Source of the DNA: a virus
Reading direction: 5' to 3' (one strand)
IMG/VR virus record: IMGVR_UViG_3300031215_000068
Coordinates: 1-23,743 of that record
DNA: 23,743 nucleotides
Both the position numbers and the translations under genes were made by a program. Below the pieces are notes generated by a model. The model saw only the letters and a program-made list of their open reading frames with translations. It made no database searches and was not told where the DNA came from. Of the stretch, positions 12,954 to 23,743 are shown one piece after another (the first letter of the stretch is position 1; each line of letters begins with the position of its first letter).

Positions 12954-15900
12954 ATGAACCAACTTCGCGATGTATATCTTCATGGTCGTCTTGCCAAGCG
13001 TTTTGGCAAGAAGCATCGTCTGTCTGTGGATTCGCCTTCTGAAGCGATCCGCGCGTTGTCGTCGCAATACCCCGGTTTCCGCGAGACCATTTCTACCGGT
13101 AACTACGCAGTCGTCCGGGGTAAACTGGACGACGAAACGTATCTCACCGATTGTGAGCTGAATGTCCGGTTCGGTTCTTGTCCAGAGATGCACCTGATTC
13201 CAGAACCCAAACTCGCTGGTCTGGACCCTCTTACTCAATTCATCATCTCCGCGACCGTACTAGCTGCGACAACTATCATCTCATCCTTGCTGGCCCCGCA
13301 GATCGATGCGCCGGACCCTAACAAGCGAGAGAGGGAAGAAAACTCGGGCATATTCGACGGCCCGGTGAACGTGACCGAACAAGGTCACCCTATCCCCTAT
13401 ATCGCTGGTTTGAAGGTTCGCGTCGGGTCTGTTGTCGGCGCTTCGGGTATCGAGACGACTGACATACCTATCTCTCAACGCTACGACGGCGAGGGTGGTT
13501 ATGGTGGTGGCAACACGGGCGGATTCCGTGGCGATAATAACAACCTCCAACTCGAAAAGGGTGGTAAGGGAGGCGGACAGGCGCGGGCGGCTCAAGAAGA
13601 CCCGAACACGCTCCGGTCAAACACAACCGCCAGAATCATTGACCTCGTCGGCGAAGGCCCCATTGGTGGTCTGATCGACGGTCTGAAATCTGTCTACTTT
13701 GACGGCACGCCGGTTGAGAATCCTGACGGAACCTTCAACTTCACCGGCGTTGAGGTTCAGGAGCGTTTCGGTGAGGCCGATCAAGAGCATCTTCCTAGCT
13801 TCAGCGCTGTCGAATCCAACCCGCGAGAGATCGGGGTCGAGTGTGTGTATGGCGACACGTCAAATAACCGGTTCGGGAGGGTTGAGCCGGTCGAGACGAT
13901 CAGCAATTCTCTGGTTGACCGCGCTCGCGTTGTTATCAGCTTAGATAATGGACTCAATCGTCAAGATACGGAGACCGGCGATCTGCTTAGGACCAGCGTC
14001 ATCGTCGCGATTGATGTCCAAGTGGACGGCGGCGGGTTCATTGAGGTCGTTAAGCACACCTTCTCCGGAAAGACGGTCAGCACATACCCGAAGTCTTTTG
14101 ATGTAGAGCTTCCGAGCGGAAACACGCGTCAGGTTCGCGTGCGTCGGGTTACCCCAGACCGGGAAGAAGCGTCTCACACCGATAATGTATTCTTCTCCTC
14201 CATCGTCGAAATTATCGACGCCAAACTGACGTATCCATACACCGCCTACATGGGCGTCACTGTCGACGCTCTACAATTTGGAAGCCGAATTGCTGGACGC
14301 GCCTACGAACTCGCCGGGACGATTGTCGACGTCCCGTCGAACTATGATCCTGTCGAGAAGACCTACACCGGGACGTGGGACGGGACGTGGAAGAAAGCGG
14401 CTACTGAAAACGCGGCGTGGCACGTACGAAACCTTGTGATCAACAACCGATATGGTCTCGGACGTTATACGAGCGCTCTCCCTGACAAATGGGAGCTGTA
14501 TCAGATTGCGCAATACAACGATCAACTCATCCCAGACGGGCGCGGCGGACTAGAGCCTAGGTATACCCTCAACACCGTGCTCAACACGCGTGAGGAAGCA
14601 TACGACCAGCTTAACAAGCTCGTCTCGACCTTCCGGGGCATGTCGTACTGGTCCGGTAATGCGATCACCTTCCGCCAAGATCGCCCGTCGACAAATGAAC
14701 CGCACATTCTCAACCCGTCCAACTCGGTTGAAGGCAAAGTCGACTATTCCGAACCGTCGATCAAAGACCGTAACTCGGTCTACGTCGTCATGTGGAACGA
14801 CCCGAAAGATGGTTTCAGACTGACTCCAGAAGTGGTCGAAGACCAGCGCCTCATTCGTGAGATCGGTTGGAAAGAAAAACAGATTGTCGCGATTGGTTGC
14901 ACCTCGCGAGGCCAAGCCCGACGCATCGGCAAATTCTCGCTGGACGATGAGTGGAATGCTCAGAAGCGTGCCACTTGGGGCGAAGGTATCGGCGGCAAAC
15001 TCAAGCTTCCCGGCGACGAAGTCCAAATCTTTGATCCGGAGTTCTACGCCGAGCCTCTGCGTCATCGGGGAGGGCGGGTCAAGACCGCCACCACTACGGC
15101 TGTCACGATTGGCCATCCCCTCGCCCTCGACCCGAACAAGGAATACTCTCTCAAGGTCGTCCTTCCGGATGGTACTGTCGAAGTGCGTGAAGTCACCTTC
15201 ACACTTGACTCTGAGGGTTTCACCGAAGTCCTAAATCCGATCTTAGCGTTCTCGGATTCTCCGATCCCTGACGCGGTCTGGGCTGTCCAAGACGAGGATA
15301 CAGCACCTCTGCGTTTCCGCGTCGAGAGCGTGACCGAAGAGTCCTCTATCGAGCACAAACTTCAGGCGCGAATCTACGACCCGACCAAATACGCGCGGAT
15401 CGAGCAAGGGTTGACGCTCCCACCTGAGGCTGTCAGCAACCTTTTAACCGGTCCTATCGCGAAACCGCGTGGTTTGAACGTACAAGAGTTCTGGAAACAA
15501 GTAGGCGACACTCGGGTCCCTAGCCTCAGCCTTAGTTGGACTCCGTCCCCAGATAGGCGAGTCGAACTTTATGAAGTCCAATTCATTGAACCGGGCTCAG
15601 AAAACTTTGAAGAGCTTAGCCGAGGTGTTGAGGTCTTCCGAGACGTCGTAGGTGTGGTGCCGGGAATCTACCGTTTCCGAGTACGCGCTGTTGGTTTTCT
15701 TGGTACGCCTTCTGCTTGGGCTCCTCTGACTGTAGATGTCAGCGGGTCTAGATCTACTCTTCCGGACGTCGCCGACCTACAGGTTGTCACTGCTGAATCC
15801 CCAAGACAAACCTACCTTACTTGGTCGCGTCCGTACGACCCTAGGCCGTTCAAATACGGCATCACACTGACTACTGAAGACGGGACGGAAGACCTCGCGG

Positions 15901-18401
15901 AGATCACCGCTCAAGAGTATATTGTTCGTCAAGCCGGAACATACACCGTGTATGTGCGATACATGGGGCATGAGTCTACTGGTGTTCCGGTTGTCGTGAC
16001 CGAAGAAGACCTTCCGTCGCTCAACTGGGATGTCATCGATGGACGCCCGACGACCCTAGCGGAGCTTGACGCAGCAGCTCAAGAAGCCCTTCAGACCGCG
16101 AATACGGTCGCCGACGCTGCTAAAACAGCGGCAGACGAGGCTATTGAGGGTACGAGAAACGTAAGAGGGCTTGAGGGGCTTTCTCTTATCAACTGGTTTG
16201 AACAAACCACCCGGTACACAGGCTGGACGCATCCGGGCGCTATGCCGTCGCCGATGAACCAAGATTTGTTCAAGCTGGTTTGGGACTTTTCCACCTCTGG
16301 TGAGAAACCAAACAACGCAGCTCGATACCCTGTGACTCGACCAGTAAACGCCGGGTCTTTCGTCCAAACCGGTATCGAGATCGAGTGTGGGGGCTCTGTT
16401 GAGGAAGCTGTCCTCAACGTTCTTTGGTTTGACGAATCCGGATCACTCATCTCGCGGGTTGAGATTGATAGGGGAACCGGTCGTCGTTTGGAAGGCATCG
16501 CGGAAGCTCCGGAAGGGTCTGCCAGCGCAAGTTTTGACCTAGTACCTGTTGTGTCTGAACTGACCGGTATCGGTTTTATCAGCATCAATGAGCCCTATGC
16601 TGCGTATGCGCTGACCGGCCAAACCGAAGTTGAAGAATATTCCTCCAAGAGTGACGAGGTTTATGCACGATTTGAGGAACTAGAGAGAGCAATCGCCGGT
16701 CAGGTTACGGCGTCTCGTCAGCTCATCAGCGAAAACAGAACCTCGCGTGCTCTGTACCGTGAAAACGTCGAAACTATCACCAATGATCGGTACGCCCGTG
16801 TCGTCGCAGACATGGAGATTTCCACGCGTGTAGAAGACATTGAAGAAAACTACATGACGGCTGCGCAAATCAGTCAAACCTATATGACTGAGAGCGAAAC
16901 CGAACAATCAATCGCTCTCTACAATCTGAATCTAAACTCAACATTCCAGTCTTTGAAGGACGATCTGGCTTCAAACTATCTCACTAGCTCTGAGATAGAC
17001 CAAACCTATATGACTCAGTCTGATGTTAATCAGGCAATCGCGGTGTATGACCTTAACCTGAATAGCACTTTCGAAGACCTGAAAGATGATCTAGGATCAA
17101 ACTATCTCACTAGCTCTGAGATAGACCAGACCTATATGACGCAGGCTGAGGTTGATCAGACCATATCTTTGTACAATCTTGATCTAAACTCAACATTCCA
17201 GTCTTTAAAATATGACCTTAACACCAATTATATTACTTCGTCTCAGATAAGCCAAACCTATATGACGCAGGCTGAGGTTAATCAGGCAATCGCGGTGTAT
17301 GACCTCAATCTAAATAGCACTTTCGAAGACCTGAAAGATGATCTAGGATCAAATTATATAACCGCGTCTGAGATCGATCTTACCTATATGACGCAGGCTG
17401 AGGTTGATCAGACCATATCTTTGTACAATCTGAATCTAAACTCAACATTCCAGTCTTTGAAGGACGATCTGGCTTCAAACTATCTCACTAGCTCTGAGAT
17501 AGACCAAACCTATATGACGCAGTCTGAGGTTAATCAGGCAATCGCGGTGTATGACCTTAACCTGAATAGTAGTTTTAATGGTCTTGATACCCGAATCGGC
17601 GACATTGAGACGAGCTATATAACTGAGGCTACAGCAAACCAACGATTCACAACTTATTCCGATGTCAACCAAGCAATAGCGGTTTACAATCTTGATCTAA
17701 ATTCAGATTTCAGTGGTCTCAAATCTTCAGTAAACTTGACCGCTCAAACGGTTTCGGATTTGCAAGGTAATGTTTCTGCTACTTACGGCTTTGAATTGGA
17801 CGCCGACGGCAACATCGCGTCTATGAAGGCTCATGCTGACGGCTCCGGGTCATCTATTAGATTCTTGGCTGATAAATTCCTTATCGCTACGCCGGAAGCT
17901 GCGGTTGATCCTTTTGGGATTCAAGGGAATACGGTCACAATGCAGAATGTGGAGATTCAAGGTAATCTCCTTGTTTCTGGTACTGTAGATGCCCCACAAC
18001 TAAAAGTTGGTGCTGTGTCTAATTCGGCTGCTTACACAGGTTGGAGTAGTGGAAACCTATTTAGGTATTCGTGGCGTGATATTGCCAACGTGAACTTTGC
18101 AAGTATTGAAGGAGGGACTATATCGGTAGCACTGACCTTGAGCTGTGGTAATCTATCAAATCAAGATGTTGCTGTCACGATACGGCTAATAACACCAGAA
18201 GGCCCGCGTGAGCTTCATGACGTGCTAGATTATCTGTTTGAGAACACGAATACGGCTGTGTTTAACTTCACGAACATACCAGCCGGTACCGGTCAGTACA
18301 AAATCCAAGCAATGTACACAAACGGAAGGTCAAGCGAGACGGTTAATCCCGCTCCTGACCCTCGCCAATGGAACCTAGCTATTACGGAGCTTAAGCGATG
18401 A
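12954..18401 (+). CDS. fused tail assembly I and central fibre J protein
   Basis: This is one frame of 1815 residues with no internal start between the two parts. Residues 1 to about 176 are lambda I-like (VYLHGRLAKRFGKKHRLSVD, a hydrophobic segment PLTQFIISATVLAATTIIS, then GPVNVTEQGHPIPYIAGLKV). Residues 177-206 are a Gly-rich linker. From about 207 it is lambda J-like (NTTARIIDLVGEGPIGGLID, KSVYFDGTPVENPDGTFNF), the central fibre and receptor-binding tip protein. Two fibronectin-III-like domains lie at about 837-934 and 936-1019, followed by a beta domain at about 1060-1210, helical segments, then seven repeats of 42-45 residues (1299-1595). A DUF1983-like segment follows (about 1605-1650: TYGFELDADGNIASM) and a beta-rich C-terminus. 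Lambda I and J are separate genes. The stop overlaps the next start (ATGA). Confidence 0.92.
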   Translation: MNQLRDVYLHGRLAKRFGKKHRLSVDSPSEAIRALSSQYPGFRETISTGNYAVVRGKLDDETYLTDCELNVRFGSCPEMHLIPEPKLAGLDPLTQFIISATVLAATTIISSLLAPQIDAPDPNKREREENSGIFDGPVNVTEQGHPIPYIAGLKVRVGSVVGASGIETTDIPISQRYDGEGGYGGGNTGGFRGDNNNLQLEKGGKGGGQARAAQEDPNTLRSNTTARIIDLVGEGPIGGLIDGLKSVYFDGTPVENPDGTFNFTGVEVQERFGEADQEHLPSFSAVESNPREIGVECVYGDTSNNRFGRVEPVETISNSLVDRARVVISLDNGLNRQDTETGDLLRTSVIVAIDVQVDGGGFIEVVKHTFSGKTVSTYPKSFDVELPSGNTRQVRVRRVTPDREEASHTDNVFFSSIVEIIDAKLTYPYTAYMGVTVDALQFGSRIAGRAYELAGTIVDVPSNYDPVEKTYTGTWDGTWKKAATENAAWHVRNLVINNRYGLGRYTSALPDKWELYQIAQYNDQLIPDGRGGLEPRYTLNTVLNTREEAYDQLNKLVSTFRGMSYWSGNAITFRQDRPSTNEPHILNPSNSVEGKVDYSEPSIKDRNSVYVVMWNDPKDGFRLTPEVVEDQRLIREIGWKEKQIVAIGCTSRGQARRIGKFSLDDEWNAQKRATWGEGIGGKLKLPGDEVQIFDPEFYAEPLRHRGGRVKTATTTAVTIGHPLALDPNKEYSLKVVLPDGTVEVREVTFTLDSEGFTEVLNPILAFSDSPIPDAVWAVQDEDTAPLRFRVESVTEESSIEHKLQARIYDPTKYARIEQGLTLPPEAVSNLLTGPIAKPRGLNVQEFWKQVGDTRVPSLSLSWTPSPDRRVELYEVQFIEPGSENFEELSRGVEVFRDVVGVVPGIYRFRVRAVGFLGTPSAWAPLTVDVSGSRSTLPDVADLQVVTAESPRQTYLTWSRPYDPRPFKYGITLTTEDGTEDLAEITAQEYIVRQAGTYTVYVRYMGHESTGVPVVVTEEDLPSLNWDVIDGRPTTLAELDAAAQEALQTANTVADAAKTAADEAIEGTRNVRGLEGLSLINWFEQTTRYTGWTHPGAMPSPMNQDLFKLVWDFSTSGEKPNNAARYPVTRPVNAGSFVQTGIEIECGGSVEEAVLNVLWFDESGSLISRVEIDRGTGRRLEGIAEAPEGSASASFDLVPVVSELTGIGFISINEPYAAYALTGQTEVEEYSSKSDEVYARFEELERAIAGQVTASRQLISENRTSRALYRENVETITNDRYARVVADMEISTRVEDIEENYMTAAQISQTYMTESETEQSIALYNLNLNSTFQSLKDDLASNYLTSSEIDQTYMTQSDVNQAIAVYDLNLNSTFEDLKDDLGSNYLTSSEIDQTYMTQAEVDQTISLYNLDLNSTFQSLKYDLNTNYITSSQISQTYMTQAEVNQAIAVYDLNLNSTFEDLKDDLGSNYITASEIDLTYMTQAEVDQTISLYNLNLNSTFQSLKDDLASNYLTSSEIDQTYMTQSEVNQAIAVYDLNLNSSFNGLDTRIGDIETSYITEATANQRFTTYSDVNQAIAVYNLDLNSDFSGLKSSVNLTAQTVSDLQGNVSATYGFELDADGNIASMKAHADGSGSSIRFLADKFLIATPEAAVDPFGIQGNTVTMQNVEIQGNLLVSGTVDAPQLKVGAVSNSAAYTGWSSGNLFRYSWRDIANVNFASIEGGTISVALTLSCGNLSNQDVAVTIRLITPEGPRELHDVLDYLFENTNTAVFNFTNIPAGTGQYKIQAMYTNGRSSETVNPAPDPRQWNLAITELKR
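16848..17738 (+). repeat. seven tandem 126-bp repeats in the J part, alternating types
   Basis: Copies begin at 16848, 16974, 17100, 17226, 17352, 17478 (this one 135 bp) and 17613. The core is N-Y-x-T-x-x-x-I-x-x-T-Y-M-T-Q, then either TISLYNLNLNSTFQSL (copies 1, 3, 5; copy 1 begins SIALYN) or AIAVYDLNLNSTFEDL (copies 2, 4; variants in 6, 7). The alternation means that the unit duplicated was a 252-bp pair. Some copies share long identical stretches of DNA. The A/T content is visibly higher than in the rest of the gene. Confidence 0.93.
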
Positions 18402-18604: not shown

Positions 18605-18616
18605 CCCAAACGATGA

Positions 18617-18647
18617 ACCAAAACGTCAGCCATATTGACGTTTTGGT
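18617..18647 (+). promoter_or_regulatory. perfect 12-bp hairpin before the fibre gene
   Basis: ACCAAAACGTCA (18617-18628) pairs with TGACGTTTTGGT (18636-18647) around a seven-base loop. No T run follows, so a terminator is unlikely. It contains a CGTCA-N7-TGACG dyad (18624-18640) and overlaps the -35 box of the putative promoter, which suggests a DNA-level operator or a leader hairpin. Its position argues against the in-frame ATG at 18613 being the fibre start. Confidence 0.55.
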
Positions 18648-18664
18648 ATCATATGTTATATATA
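18635..18664 (+). promoter_or_regulatory. putative fibre-gene promoter
   Basis: TTGACG (18635-18640) is followed by AT-rich sequence with TATATA at 18657-18662 (spacer 16) or 18659-18664 (spacer 18). Transcription would begin near 18670, just before the binding site GGAG (18687-18690). The sequence AGCCATATTGACG resembles AGCCGTATTGACA at the end of the window. Confidence 0.45.
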
Positions 18665-18693
18665 TACTGAACAATTCCCTTGCATTGGAGATT

Positions 18694-21600
18694 ATGTTGA
18701 CTACGACACTGGTCTTTATACCAGCCGGTCAGCCGTTTGTTGATGAGGCGGTGAATCCGCCCGAAACGTACTCTGGCGGACAGATTTACTCGCTCGACAC
18801 GTCGACGCAAGGTGGTATTGACGCAGTCAACCGCATCATCTCCGCCGGTGGGGGTTTTGATGTAAGTCGACTTGTCGTGGGACTTATCCAGATTGCGTGG
18901 AGTCAAGTAACCGGTAAGCCGGGGTCTTTTACTCCATCGGCTCACAGCCATTCGGCGAGCGATATCGTTTCTGGAACGTTGGACGTTCTACGGGTTCCGA
19001 ACCTTGACGCTTCAAAAATAGCGACTGGCATTCTTGAAGTCGCTAGAATTCCGGACCTTGACGCCTCTAAAATAACTTCGGGTGTTTTAGGTGACGACCG
19101 TGTATCTCCGTCTAATGTCACCCAACATCAATCTTTGTTTGAGCTTACTCAGTCACAGGTTACCGGTCTGGTCGATGCGCTCGCATCCAAGGTAGACCTT
19201 GTAGAGAAAGGTGTAGCCAACGGTTTAGCGACTTTGGGTGTTGAAGGTGTGGTTCCTGTCGATCAGGTCCCAAACCTCCCAGCCTCGAAAATTAATTCTG
19301 GTGTTCTCAGTACCGAGCAAATACCGTCTTTAGACGCGGACAAGATCGCTTCAGGAATCCTCGGCGTAGGGCGTATCCCGAATCTAGACGCCGCGAAAAT
19401 TGCGACGGGTATTCTTGAGCTTGCTCGTATTCCCGACCTAGACGCTGCGAAAATTACGTCTGGTGTATTCTCACCAGATAGAATCTCATCGGAATCCGTA
19501 ACTCAACATGCCGGATCACTAGTCCTTGATCAGGATCAAATCACCGGGCTCCCCGCCGCGCTCGATTCCAAGGTTGATGATTCTCAGGTTGGGGTCGCAA
19601 ATGGTGTTGCTTCTCTAAATGTGTCTGGCGTCGTTCCGGTAGTCCAAATTCCGGGCCTCGGTACCGACAAGATCATTTCTGGTGTCTTTGCGAACGAACG
19701 CATCTCGCAAAGCTCTGTGAAGCAATACGAAGCCGCGCTTTCGCTCACGCTTTCCCAAATCACAGATCGGGGGGCTCTAACCTCCCACGATACGGTGTCT
19801 ACCGGCCTTGTGGACGACGGTGCGATAACCGAATCTAAGCTTTCTGCGGCGGTGCAGGAGAAGATCAACAGGGCTGCGAAGAATAACTTCAATAGCACTG
19901 TTGACCCAACTTCGAACGACGATTCCGGGGACGGGTATGTCGAAGGCTCTGTGTGGGTAAACACCACGACTGACGAGAGCTTCCGCCTTGTAGACGCCAC
20001 GTCTGGCGCGGCTCAGTGGGCGAAAACCACCCTGACCGCTGACGAGTTGGGAAGCATGGCTTTCCAGAACGCCGCCGCCGTGAACATCTCTGGCGGCGTG
20101 GTTGATGCAGGAACGCTGCGAAAGTCAGGCAATGACGTCTGGCATTCCGGTAATTTCGATCCGAATACAAAAAGCGACGCTGGCCACAGACACGACAACG
20201 CTACCGTATCGTCAGACGGTTTCATGTCGTCGGGTGACAAGGAAAAGATCGACGGTATCGAACCGGGTGCTGAGGTCAATATCGTAAAAAGCGTCCAATC
20301 GAGAACCGGCGATGTCGTTATCACCAAAAATGACGTTGGTCTGGACGAAGTCGACAACACTTCTGACACCAACAAACCAATCTCGACCGCTACACAGGCG
20401 GCTCTTAATTCGAAGAGCAATACCGGTCATACACACTCAACCGATGAGATCACTTCGGGAGAGTTCGCAGACGACCGAATTTCGCAGACCAGTGTAACAC
20501 AACACCAAGGCGCGTTCGCGCTTTCCCAGTCTCAGATTGGTGGTCTGGTTGGGGCTCTGTCTGATAAGGTCGAAACGAGCGTAATTGGTGCTGCAAACGG
20601 TGTCGCAACTCTCGATGCCTCGCAACTCCTTCCGCTTGTTCAAGTACCCGGACTACCAACGTCTCGCATCACCAGCGGTACGTTTTCTACCGCACGTATC
20701 CCCGGTCTAAGCGCTTCGAAGATCACGTCCGGCACCTTCCACGACGACCGGATAAGTCAATCTGCTGTGAAGCAATATGAGGGTGATTTAGCGGTCGATT
20801 GGACGCAGCTTACGTCGGTACCTAACCTCTATACGACCTCGGAAGTTGACGACCTACTTGCTCAGAAAGCCAACCTGAGTCAGCTCCCCTATGCCTGTGT
20901 GGGTCAATACAGCTCGACCGACACCACGACCAACATCAACGCCGACGCCGAGATTGTTTGGAACGCCGTAGATAAAGGCGACATCGTGATAACCGTCACC
21001 GGCGCTTCGATCACCGTAGCGGAAGACGGCCTGTTCGATGTCTATACGTCACTCGCTTACGAAAACATCGGTGCTGACGACACCGACGTTCGCGACTCGG
21101 TTGGCGTGTACCTAGAAGTCAACGGTGTAGCTCGCTCAGCAACCGGTATGGGTGGGTACGTCCGATCCAAAGACAGTCACAACGAAGCGTCTACGTCTAT
21201 CTCTGAGGTTCTGGCGCTCAGCGTGGGCGACACTCTCAAGGTGAAGACCCGAAGAATGGCGGGGGGGGACGATTGCTACCTTCGTGCCAATGAGAGTGTC
21301 CTGAAGATCGTCAAGGTGGGCGGTAAGTCTTCACTTCTCGCGGCACAATCCATCGCGGACGTTTCAGGCCTTCAGAGCGCACTTGATGCCAAGGCCAATG
21401 ACGGTCATAAACATGACGCCGCCGATGTAGAGACGGGTGAGTTCGCTAACGAGCGGATCAGTCAATCTTCAATCGTCCAACACCAAGCCGCGCTCGATAT
21501 CGACTGGACGCAGCTTACGTCCGTCCCGACCGCATTTACCCCGGAAGCTCACGGTCACGATATCGATGATATAGCGGGTCTAGAATTCGCTCTGAACTCC

Positions 21601-23103
21601 AAGCTCGACGCAAGCGAGTATACCGCTTCCGACGTTCTGGCGAAGCTTCTGACCGTTGACGGCGACGCCAGTGGTCTTGCAGCTCAAACCGCATCGACGC
21701 TTTCCACCCCCCGCACGATTTCACTGTCCGGTGACGCCCTTGGTTTCGCCAGCTTCGACGGTTCTGAAGACGTGATTATCGACATCACGGTAAAGGATGA
21801 CTTTCACTTTCACTCCATCGGCACAGTGGCTGGTCTTGAGAGCGCGCTGAACTCCAAGCTCGACGCAAGCGAGTATACCGCTTCCGACGTTCTGGCGAAG
21901 CTTCTGACCGTTGACGGCGACGCCAGTGGTCTTGCAGCTCAAACCGCATCGACGCTTTCCACCCCCCGCACGATTTCACTGTCCGGTGACGCCCTTGGTT
22001 TCGCCAGCTTCGACGGTTCTGAAGACGTGATTATCGACATCACGGTAAAGGATGACAAGCACGCTCACATCATCGACAACGTGGATGGTCTTCAGAGCGC
22101 GCTGAACTCCAAGCTCGACGCAAGCGAGTATACCGCTTCCGACGTTCTGGCGAAGCTTCTGACCGTTGACGGCGACGCCAGTGGTCTTGCAGCTCAAACC
22201 GCATCGAAGCTTTCCACCGCCCGCACGATTTCACTGTCCGGTGACGCCTATGGTTACGCCAGCTTCGACGGTTCTGAAAACGCGACTATCACCGTCACGG
22301 TAAAGGATGACAAGCACGCTCACATCATCGACAACGTGGATGGTCTTCAGAGCGCACTCGACGCCAAGGCAGACCTTGTTGGTGGGAAACTAAACCCGAC
22401 TCAACTACCCGACGATGTTGGAGGCGGCGGCCTGACGGTCGCGGCGATCAAGACGAGCGCTTTCCGCCCGAACGTCAGCGAGATCACGCCGATTGATACG
22501 ACGGCGACCGGCGTGAACCTAACGGGCCTGCCGGACACGACGACTTACGGCGCGCGCTCGGTGCTTGTTCCACACGCTGAAAGCTGGTCGGTCTCAAACC
22601 CCGTCACGCTTCCGGCCAGTGAGGCGACTCCCATCAACGGCGTGGCGATCGACCTGATCTTGACTAAGCCGTCGATTATCGACATGCGCTACGTCGGCTC
22701 TAATTTCGGCTGGGAAGTGACGGTGACGCCTCTGGACGCCGCCGACGATTATCGCAGCCCGACCGTGGCGACGCCGTCGATTACGTCCCCGGCTGACGCC
22801 GCGACGGGGCAACCTGAAACGCCGACCTTCACGTCGTCGCCGTTCGCCATGCTGTTTGGGTCGGACACGCACGCCGAGTCTGACTGGCAGGTCGCGACAG
22901 ACGTGGGCTTCGGCAATGTCGTCGCGCAGAGCCTAGGCGCGGCGAACCTGACGTCGTGGACACTGGCGCCGGGCGTTTTGCAGGCCGCGACGAAATATTA
23001 CGTGCGCTTGCGTCACTGGGGTGCGGACTCATTGGAGCCCACCGACTGGTCCGATGTGGTTTCATTTACGACGGCCATTTCGTTCTCCGATCCGGGCGTC
23101 TAA
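18694..23103 (+). CDS. long modular side tail fibre, ending at an in-frame stop
   Basis: This is a 1469-residue fibre. The ATG at 18694 follows GGAG by three bases (a TTG at 18697 is also possible); an in-frame ATG at 18613 is rejected because it lies beside a hairpin and promoter. The shaft has many copies of a degenerate unit, for example RIPDLDAAKITSGVF and DDRISQSAVKQYEG, and eight H-x-H motifs. A beta-rich insert at about residues 730-876 resembles a C1q/TNF-type jelly roll (ITVAEDGLFDVYTSLAY). Residues 967-1221 are three near-identical 85-residue repeats. The C-terminal part (about 1240-1469) is compositionally different, with a fibronectin-like segment ending TKYYVRLRHWGADSLEPTDW. The frame stays open for 179 codons after the TAA. 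It probably binds the host surface. Confidence 0.88.
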   Translation: MLTTTLVFIPAGQPFVDEAVNPPETYSGGQIYSLDTSTQGGIDAVNRIISAGGGFDVSRLVVGLIQIAWSQVTGKPGSFTPSAHSHSASDIVSGTLDVLRVPNLDASKIATGILEVARIPDLDASKITSGVLGDDRVSPSNVTQHQSLFELTQSQVTGLVDALASKVDLVEKGVANGLATLGVEGVVPVDQVPNLPASKINSGVLSTEQIPSLDADKIASGILGVGRIPNLDAAKIATGILELARIPDLDAAKITSGVFSPDRISSESVTQHAGSLVLDQDQITGLPAALDSKVDDSQVGVANGVASLNVSGVVPVVQIPGLGTDKIISGVFANERISQSSVKQYEAALSLTLSQITDRGALTSHDTVSTGLVDDGAITESKLSAAVQEKINRAAKNNFNSTVDPTSNDDSGDGYVEGSVWVNTTTDESFRLVDATSGAAQWAKTTLTADELGSMAFQNAAAVNISGGVVDAGTLRKSGNDVWHSGNFDPNTKSDAGHRHDNATVSSDGFMSSGDKEKIDGIEPGAEVNIVKSVQSRTGDVVITKNDVGLDEVDNTSDTNKPISTATQAALNSKSNTGHTHSTDEITSGEFADDRISQTSVTQHQGAFALSQSQIGGLVGALSDKVETSVIGAANGVATLDASQLLPLVQVPGLPTSRITSGTFSTARIPGLSASKITSGTFHDDRISQSAVKQYEGDLAVDWTQLTSVPNLYTTSEVDDLLAQKANLSQLPYACVGQYSSTDTTTNINADAEIVWNAVDKGDIVITVTGASITVAEDGLFDVYTSLAYENIGADDTDVRDSVGVYLEVNGVARSATGMGGYVRSKDSHNEASTSISEVLALSVGDTLKVKTRRMAGGDDCYLRANESVLKIVKVGGKSSLLAAQSIADVSGLQSALDAKANDGHKHDAADVETGEFANERISQSSIVQHQAALDIDWTQLTSVPTAFTPEAHGHDIDDIAGLEFALNSKLDASEYTASDVLAKLLTVDGDASGLAAQTASTLSTPRTISLSGDALGFASFDGSEDVIIDITVKDDFHFHSIGTVAGLESALNSKLDASEYTASDVLAKLLTVDGDASGLAAQTASTLSTPRTISLSGDALGFASFDGSEDVIIDITVKDDKHAHIIDNVDGLQSALNSKLDASEYTASDVLAKLLTVDGDASGLAAQTASKLSTARTISLSGDAYGYASFDGSENATITVTVKDDKHAHIIDNVDGLQSALDAKADLVGGKLNPTQLPDDVGGGGLTVAAIKTSAFRPNVSEITPIDTTATGVNLTGLPDTTTYGARSVLVPHAESWSVSNPVTLPASEATPINGVAIDLILTKPSIIDMRYVGSNFGWEVTVTPLDAADDYRSPTVATPSITSPADAATGQPETPTFTSSPFAMLFGSDTHAESDWQVATDVGFGNVVAQSLGAANLTSWTLAPGVLQAATKYYVRLRHWGADSLEPTDWSDVVSFTTAISFSDPGV
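21261..21268 (+). repeat. G8 homopolymer in the fibre gene
   Basis: Eight consecutive G encode part of Met-Ala-Gly-Gly-Asp near residue 856. Loss or gain of one G brings a stop within about 15 codons, removing the three repeats and the C-terminal domain. Tracts of this length are known slippage sites in phase-variable bacterial genes; here the switch is only possible, not shown. Confidence 0.85.
21592..22356 (+). repeat. three tandem 255-bp repeats in the fibre gene
   Basis: Copies start at 21592, 21847 and 22102, each encoding 85 residues that begin LNSKLDASEYTASDVLAKLL and contain RTISLSGDALGFASFDGSED and an H-x-H motif. Copies 1 and 2 are almost identical as DNA through about 200 bases; copy 3 differs at a modest number of positions toward its end. 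A partial fourth start (LQSALDAKADL) follows. The unit matches the widespread LSGDxxGxxSFDGS fibre-shaft motif. Recent duplication is the simplest explanation. Confidence 0.95.
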
Positions 23104-23307
23104 AACTGGAAAGCGCCGGGGACTTACGACCTAACGCCGGTCAACAACCCGACCTTCACGGCAAACGGCGGTTATCAGGGGAACGCGTCATCAAGCTGGC
23201 TCGATACCGGCTTCAACCCGGCGACGAACGGCGTCCAATACACGAAAAACGCTCACTCGATTGGCGTTCGGGTCGAGCAGCTTGTCAGCCAGAACAGCAG
23301 GGCTCAC

Positions 23308-23643
23308 ATGGGTGCGACCGACGAATCCGGTAACAACGAACTGCTACTTGAAGACATGACCACCGCAGAGCGGAAATTTTTCGTTTCTAATGGCTGTACA
23401 GTACTCGGGCCGGTGGGAAGGCTGACCGGTCTACTCGCTGGAACGCGCGTCAATGCTAACGTACTAGAGATTTACAGGCGGGGCTCTTTGCTCGCGAGTG
23501 CGTCGCTCGAGTTACCCAAGAGCGTAAGCGCCAACCTCGCGATTCTCGCAAACGGCACCTCGGGCGGCGCGATAAGCTTTTCGGATGCGCGTGTCTCGGC
23601 GGCGTTCTGCGGCTTTGGGTCTCCAACTGGCGTAGTCAGGTGA
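23308..23643 (+). CDS. fragment of fibre C-terminal domain after the in-frame stop
   Basis: The frame of the fibre resumes after TAA (23101-23103) and stays open from 23104 to TGA at 23641-23643, 179 codons in all. A separate start would be the ATG at 23308, with weak AGGG five bases away, but that would cut the domain. The preceding part (NWKAPGTYDLTPVNNPTFTA, NGGYQGNASSSWLDTGFNPA) and this part (VLEIYRRGSLLASASLELPK, ANLAILANGTSGGAISFSDA) together read as one beta-rich, lectin/LamG-like fold, as on many fibre tips. Readthrough, recent loss of the tip, a sequencing error, or a separate short protein all remain possible. Confidence 0.55.
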   Translation: MGATDESGNNELLLEDMTTAERKFFVSNGCTVLGPVGRLTGLLAGTRVNANVLEIYRRGSLLASASLELPKSVSANLAILANGTSGGAISFSDARVSAAFCGFGSPTGVVR

Positions 23644-23717
23644 TGTGGAGAGCCGCTATGGGTGCAGACGATAAGATTCCTATAATCAGGCGTCTAAAAT
23701 CGTCGATTCTCGACTAG
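23643..23717 (+). CDS. possible 24-codon peptide after the fibre
   Basis: An ATG overlaps the preceding stop (TGATG), giving a 24-residue peptide; a second in-frame ATG at 23658 has a good binding site (GGAGAG, 23648-23653 approximately) and would give 19 residues (MGADDKIPIIRRLKSSILD). Start-stop overlap and binding site favour translation. The peptide is too short for family assignment and could be chance. Confidence 0.25.
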   Translation: MWRAAMGADDKIPIIRRLKSSILD

Positions 23718-23724
23718 AAATGTG

Positions 23725-23743
23725 AGCCGTATTGACAATAACT
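23725..23743 (+). promoter_or_regulatory. possible promoter -35 region cut by window end
   Basis: AGCCGTATTGACAATAACT ends the window. TTGACA (23732-23737) follows AGCCGTA, which resembles AGCCATATTGACG before the fibre gene, and the first seven bases recur at 4026-4032 before the 4045 promoter. The final TGACAATAACT also occurs at 1170-1180. The -10 box would lie outside the window. Confidence 0.35.

Follow-up and report, generated by a model that had tools for sequence, protein, structure and literature searches.

The fibre gene and the frame beyond its stop codon

The virus record analysed here is linear, and its 23,743 bases, referred to below as the window (the whole stretch of DNA under analysis), carry the tail genes of a lambda-like siphophage. 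A tail-fibre open reading frame occupies positions 18613..23103 of the plus strand, matching the phage tail repeat PF12789 and many tail-fibre PHROGs. The whole frame encodes 1496 residues (1469 when counted from a later ATG, as in the first-pass annotation), comprising stalk repeats and a terminal FN3-like domain, and it is closed by an in-frame TAA at 23101..23103. Within the stalk, a 255-nt unit is present in three tandem copies that are 86-90% alike (21550-22359). Another open reading frame of the window, at 12954-18401, has a lambda-I-like N-terminus (PF06805, PHROG_32) fused to gpJ in one frame; the start of this fusion is also covered by two contigs, L016 and L017, that are 99% identical to the window, and in the Rhizobium phage P106B the I-like protein and gpJ are separate coding sequences.

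Our reading of the open frames agreed with the first-pass annotation in that the frame of the fibre gene remains open after the TAA for 179 codons, up to a TGA at 23641-23643 (23104..23643, plus strand). Runs of at least 179 open codons are frequent in this GC-rich window, antisense and hence non-coding frames included, so that openness is weak evidence when taken alone; it is the codon score, a match to PHROG_26223 and a 116-bit profile match that set this frame apart from chance. Scored for codon usage, the 179-codon segment reaches 0.163; this falls within the range of real genes, at its low end (8th percentile), and exceeds the value of all off-frame segments. The score decreases along the segment: its first third has 0.31 and its last third -0.03, a value at the 2nd percentile of true coding segments. 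The two sides of the stop are similar in base composition and codon usage.

The first-pass annotation had suggested that readthrough of the stop may lengthen a minority of fibres by 179 residues, giving two fibre lengths on one virion. The uninterrupted frame is what such a mechanism would need, and the codon that closes the fibre gene speaks against it: TAA is the commonest gene end in the window (it closes 8 of the 13 counted, with TAG or TGA at the others), therefore there is no recoding. An alternative code with TAA as a sense codon was ruled out for the same reason. A search of the window for tRNA genes, suppressor tRNAs included, gave none, which also counts against readthrough, and no terminator-like site was found after the TAA.

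The region after the stop is an incomplete lectin-like domain

The 179 residues match PHROG_26223 (1.5e-12) and PHROG_18498, which contain proteins from Sinorhizobium and Flavobacterium phages and have no assigned function. The viral contig L002 is 63% identical to the post-stop residues over 41 residues, and bacterial genomes also contain matching loci, L013 for example; the plasmid records searched gave no match, and no Pfam family was matched by the tip proteins tested (those of the window, L061 and L013). The fragment encoded by the window was modelled as a beta-sandwich with a pLDDT of 78, its best matches in the PDB being the carbohydrate-binding module CBM66, pentraxins and sialidase lectin domains, which backs the label 'lectin-like'. 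The predicted structure is that of a concanavalin-A-like lectin fold, and this model, together with the family of phage proteins described here, bears out the tip domain that the first-pass annotation had placed after the stop. The model of L061, a complete relative, reached a pLDDT of 96 and likewise matches carbohydrate-binding and sialidase lectin domains; in it, helices 3-13, 20-35 and 228-245 frame the same core, whereas the window model keeps the core without these terminal helices.

The extent of the domain was assessed with a profile of 250 positions built from 59 complete-domain relatives. The window is matched over profile positions 61-225, with 116 bits, in this frame only and from the first post-stop residue, and it contains the core sequence of the family (N-W-K-x-P ... 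PTFTA..G..G ... [YW][LI][DN][TS].FNP). Positions 1-60, the N-terminal helical part, and positions 226-250, the C-terminal helix, were absent from all six frames of 22701-23743, the latter up to the contig end. A frameshift in place of a truncation was thereby ruled out, given that neither missing end lies in any of the six frames nearby.

Scans of the viral collection gave two sets of relatives of the tip, ranked by a complete domain in one and by the window fragment itself in the other, the latter serving as a check for a sampling bias towards complete domains. The domain starts at or before position 30 in 117 of the 121 distinct relatives, at 43 in two more and is cut by the contig in the remaining two; it ends at position 226 or later in 116, the other five being cut by the contig. 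Contig-end cuts aside, none of the 121 has the domain without either end. As both ends are absent from the window copy and present in its relatives, the window copy is a fragment: judged by sequence comparison, the post-stop region is a member of a real phage tip-domain family, yet not an intact domain, a point that the first-pass annotation had overlooked. Phages widely carry this lectin-like tip domain with its helical ends: 121 distinct copies were counted here among L002-L098 and L137-L215, and some proteins of the family, such as L007, carry two or three copies in tandem.

The loss of both conserved ends is hard to reconcile with readthrough, even though the post-stop residues are homologous to tip domains and their core is predicted to fold. 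It also makes a leftover of gene shuffling preferable to a hidden second fibre form. Translation of the 179-codon tail as a separate small protein of 111 residues, from an in-frame ATG at 23308, is exceedingly improbable: that ATG does exist, but a product begun there would be missing 68 residues at its front, among them the stretch of the domain that is conserved best, and no ATG, GTG or TTG lies in frame ahead of it.

The fibre end and the junction

The fibre's final complete domain, at 22777..23073 (plus strand), is FN3/Ig-like, with 42-53% identity to domains of other phage fibres and a match to Ig_Rha78A_N below the cut-off. The domain comparisons support the boundary that the first-pass annotation had drawn between an FN3-like segment and the tip domain. 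A single-protein search for close relatives of the FN3 end gave none, and the relatives considered here were obtained by an alignment-based search. In none of the 25 viral relatives is the FN3-like domain C-terminal, all of them extending at least 280 residues past the start of the domain. Gly_rich_2 (PF21722) follows it in L099, L100 and L129, a bacterial locus; the match to this family begins at profile position 1 or 2 (below the Pfam cut-off in L099), and the domain opens with F..PG.Y.W..P or a near variant. L129 is the locus read among four similar ones (L128-L131) in genome G054, which have open frames of 515-524 residues and an FN3-like domain 42% identical to that of the window; L129 runs on into the glycine-rich domain, and the four loci possibly represent related prophages.

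The junction itself, FSDPGV*NWKAP (23083..23118, plus strand; the asterisk is the stop), aligns with F..PG.Y.W..P, and its right half is the NWKAP of the tip family. The stop is aligned with the Tyr of the Gly_rich_2 opening motif in two of the three relatives (L099, L100 and L129), and the tip family has Leu, Ile, Val or Met before NW in 72 cases, counted with a pattern that admitted only these four. Since both alignments span the position of the stop, it falls inside the coding sequence of the relatives. The stop is therefore not the natural end of the fibre, as the FN3 relatives continue and the opening motif of their next domain aligns across it. The two modules that meet at the junction have W-x-A-P in common. 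The upstream match, FSDPGV to the glycine-rich motif, is short and could have arisen by chance; only the opening motif of Gly_rich_2 can be aligned after the window's FN3-like domain, and the joined segment has no Pfam match.

An 11-nt direct repeat, GGCGTCTAAAA, is present at 23095..23105, where it includes the stop, and again at 23689..23699, 594 nt downstream and beyond the open frame, both copies on the plus strand. A match as long was obtained in 13 of 2000 shuffles, and further repeats are located near it. The repeat is suggestive only, and may be a trace of an exchange.

The window junction was found in none of the other records among the viral contigs and phages searched. The lack of a conserved junction is a further point against readthrough, and a literature search on readthrough in tail fibres yielded nothing comparable; a passage from it describes a -1 frameshift in P2-like tail genes. 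Taken with the TAA, the missing tRNA and the incomplete domain, this renders readthrough very improbable as the source of a second fibre length. Still more improbable is a combined scheme, in which a core-only lectin domain, fused by recombination within W-x-A-P, would be displayed on a minority of fibres via readthrough of the TAA.

Origin of the junction

We consider it fairly probable that the junction is a mosaic made by recombination, that the fibre ends at residue 1496 and that the 179 codons go untranslated, as a relic silenced not long ago. According to this proposal, an exchange would have joined an FN3-ended fibre to the interior of a phage tip domain unrelated to it, leaving the beta-sandwich core without the N-terminal helices and the C-terminal helix of the family. 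The in-frame TAA at the junction would cut off this core-only piece, and the fibre made would be a 1496-residue protein ending just past the FN3 domain. The silencing must then be recent, for no further stop interrupts the frame and its codons still resemble coding sequence. The fall of the codon score along the 179 codons and the lack of a terminator after the TAA accord with the proposal. As neither the donor nor the ancestral fibre was found, we infer the exchange itself, and we likewise take the stop to be real in the virus and the relic to be untranslated. The first-pass annotation had also put forward a recent nonsense mutation that switches off a receptor-binding tip. This holds insofar as the stop removes the domain, but the damage exceeds one stop, as a mosaic junction and a truncated domain are present too.

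An artefact is a less likely explanation, albeit one with an appreciable chance: a wrongly called base could have created the stop within a fusion that works, or the final ~640 bases could derive from another virus, joined on at the contig end. The feature lies less than 650 bases from the contig end, a single stop interrupts an otherwise open frame, the junction recurs in no other record found, and L016 and L017, which represent the same phage at 99% in the other samples 3300031403 and 3300031212, stop before the end of the fibre. A base-call error would nevertheless leave the absent domain ends unexplained, and a join between two viruses fits poorly with the similar base composition and codon usage on either side and with the size of the only repeat found at the junction, 11 nt being short for an assembly join.

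The fold predicted for the core, a beta-sandwich at pLDDT 78, speaks somewhat against a relic, as the core by itself could still function. Stop-bearing and stop-free viruses might coexist, the stop being a reversible loss of a working core-only tip. A single stop in a frame that is otherwise open and coding-like would be expected in that case. We regard such a variable tip as distinctly unlikely, since no sequence variant was found, both conserved ends of the domain are absent and neither a recombinase nor a reverse transcriptase was noted among the genes of the window, which is only part of a genome.

Comparison with known systems and implications

The proposed recombination scar resembles the situation in lambda. 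The side tail fibre gene stf is frameshifted in the common laboratory strain (PMC3509688), and stf/tfa are also inactivated when lambda recombines with the Rac and Qin prophages (PMC3945230). In lambda as in the window, a break within a side-fibre gene cuts off its distal part, and recombination is a known route of fibre loss. The window differs in having an in-frame stop beside a truncated domain instead of the frameshift of a laboratory strain, and no intact ancestor of its fibre is known. Viewed through this analogy, the putative fibre-tip scar is ordinary phage evolution and fits the lambda pattern.

With the PHROG_26223 family, which includes the 'putative YapH protein' of Sinorhizobium phage phiN3 and Flavobacterium elemo phages, the window shares the core from NWKAPGTYD to the last strand and a predicted beta-sandwich; unlike that family, its copy is 60 profile positions short at the N-terminus and 25 short at the C-terminus, and a stop precedes it. 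As in the FN3 and Gly_rich_2 (PF21722) ends of L099, L100 and L129, an FN3-like domain is closely succeeded by the F..PG.Y.W..P motif or a near variant, but the window retains the opening motif only, with a stop inside it and the lectin-like core thereafter. RNA phages such as Qbeta employ programmed readthrough of the coat-protein stop, a leaky UGA followed by a complete and conserved extension. The window shares with Qbeta a same-frame extension after the stop, but its stop is TAA and its extension a truncated domain.

If the proposed origin is right, a single junction shows how fibre tips may be swapped and lost, as two unrelated tip modules that share W-x-A-P meet and a stop ends the product. 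Were both forms to be present in one population, the locus would be a case of tip switching. The main lesson is that the wholeness of the domain should be checked before an open frame after a stop is called readthrough.
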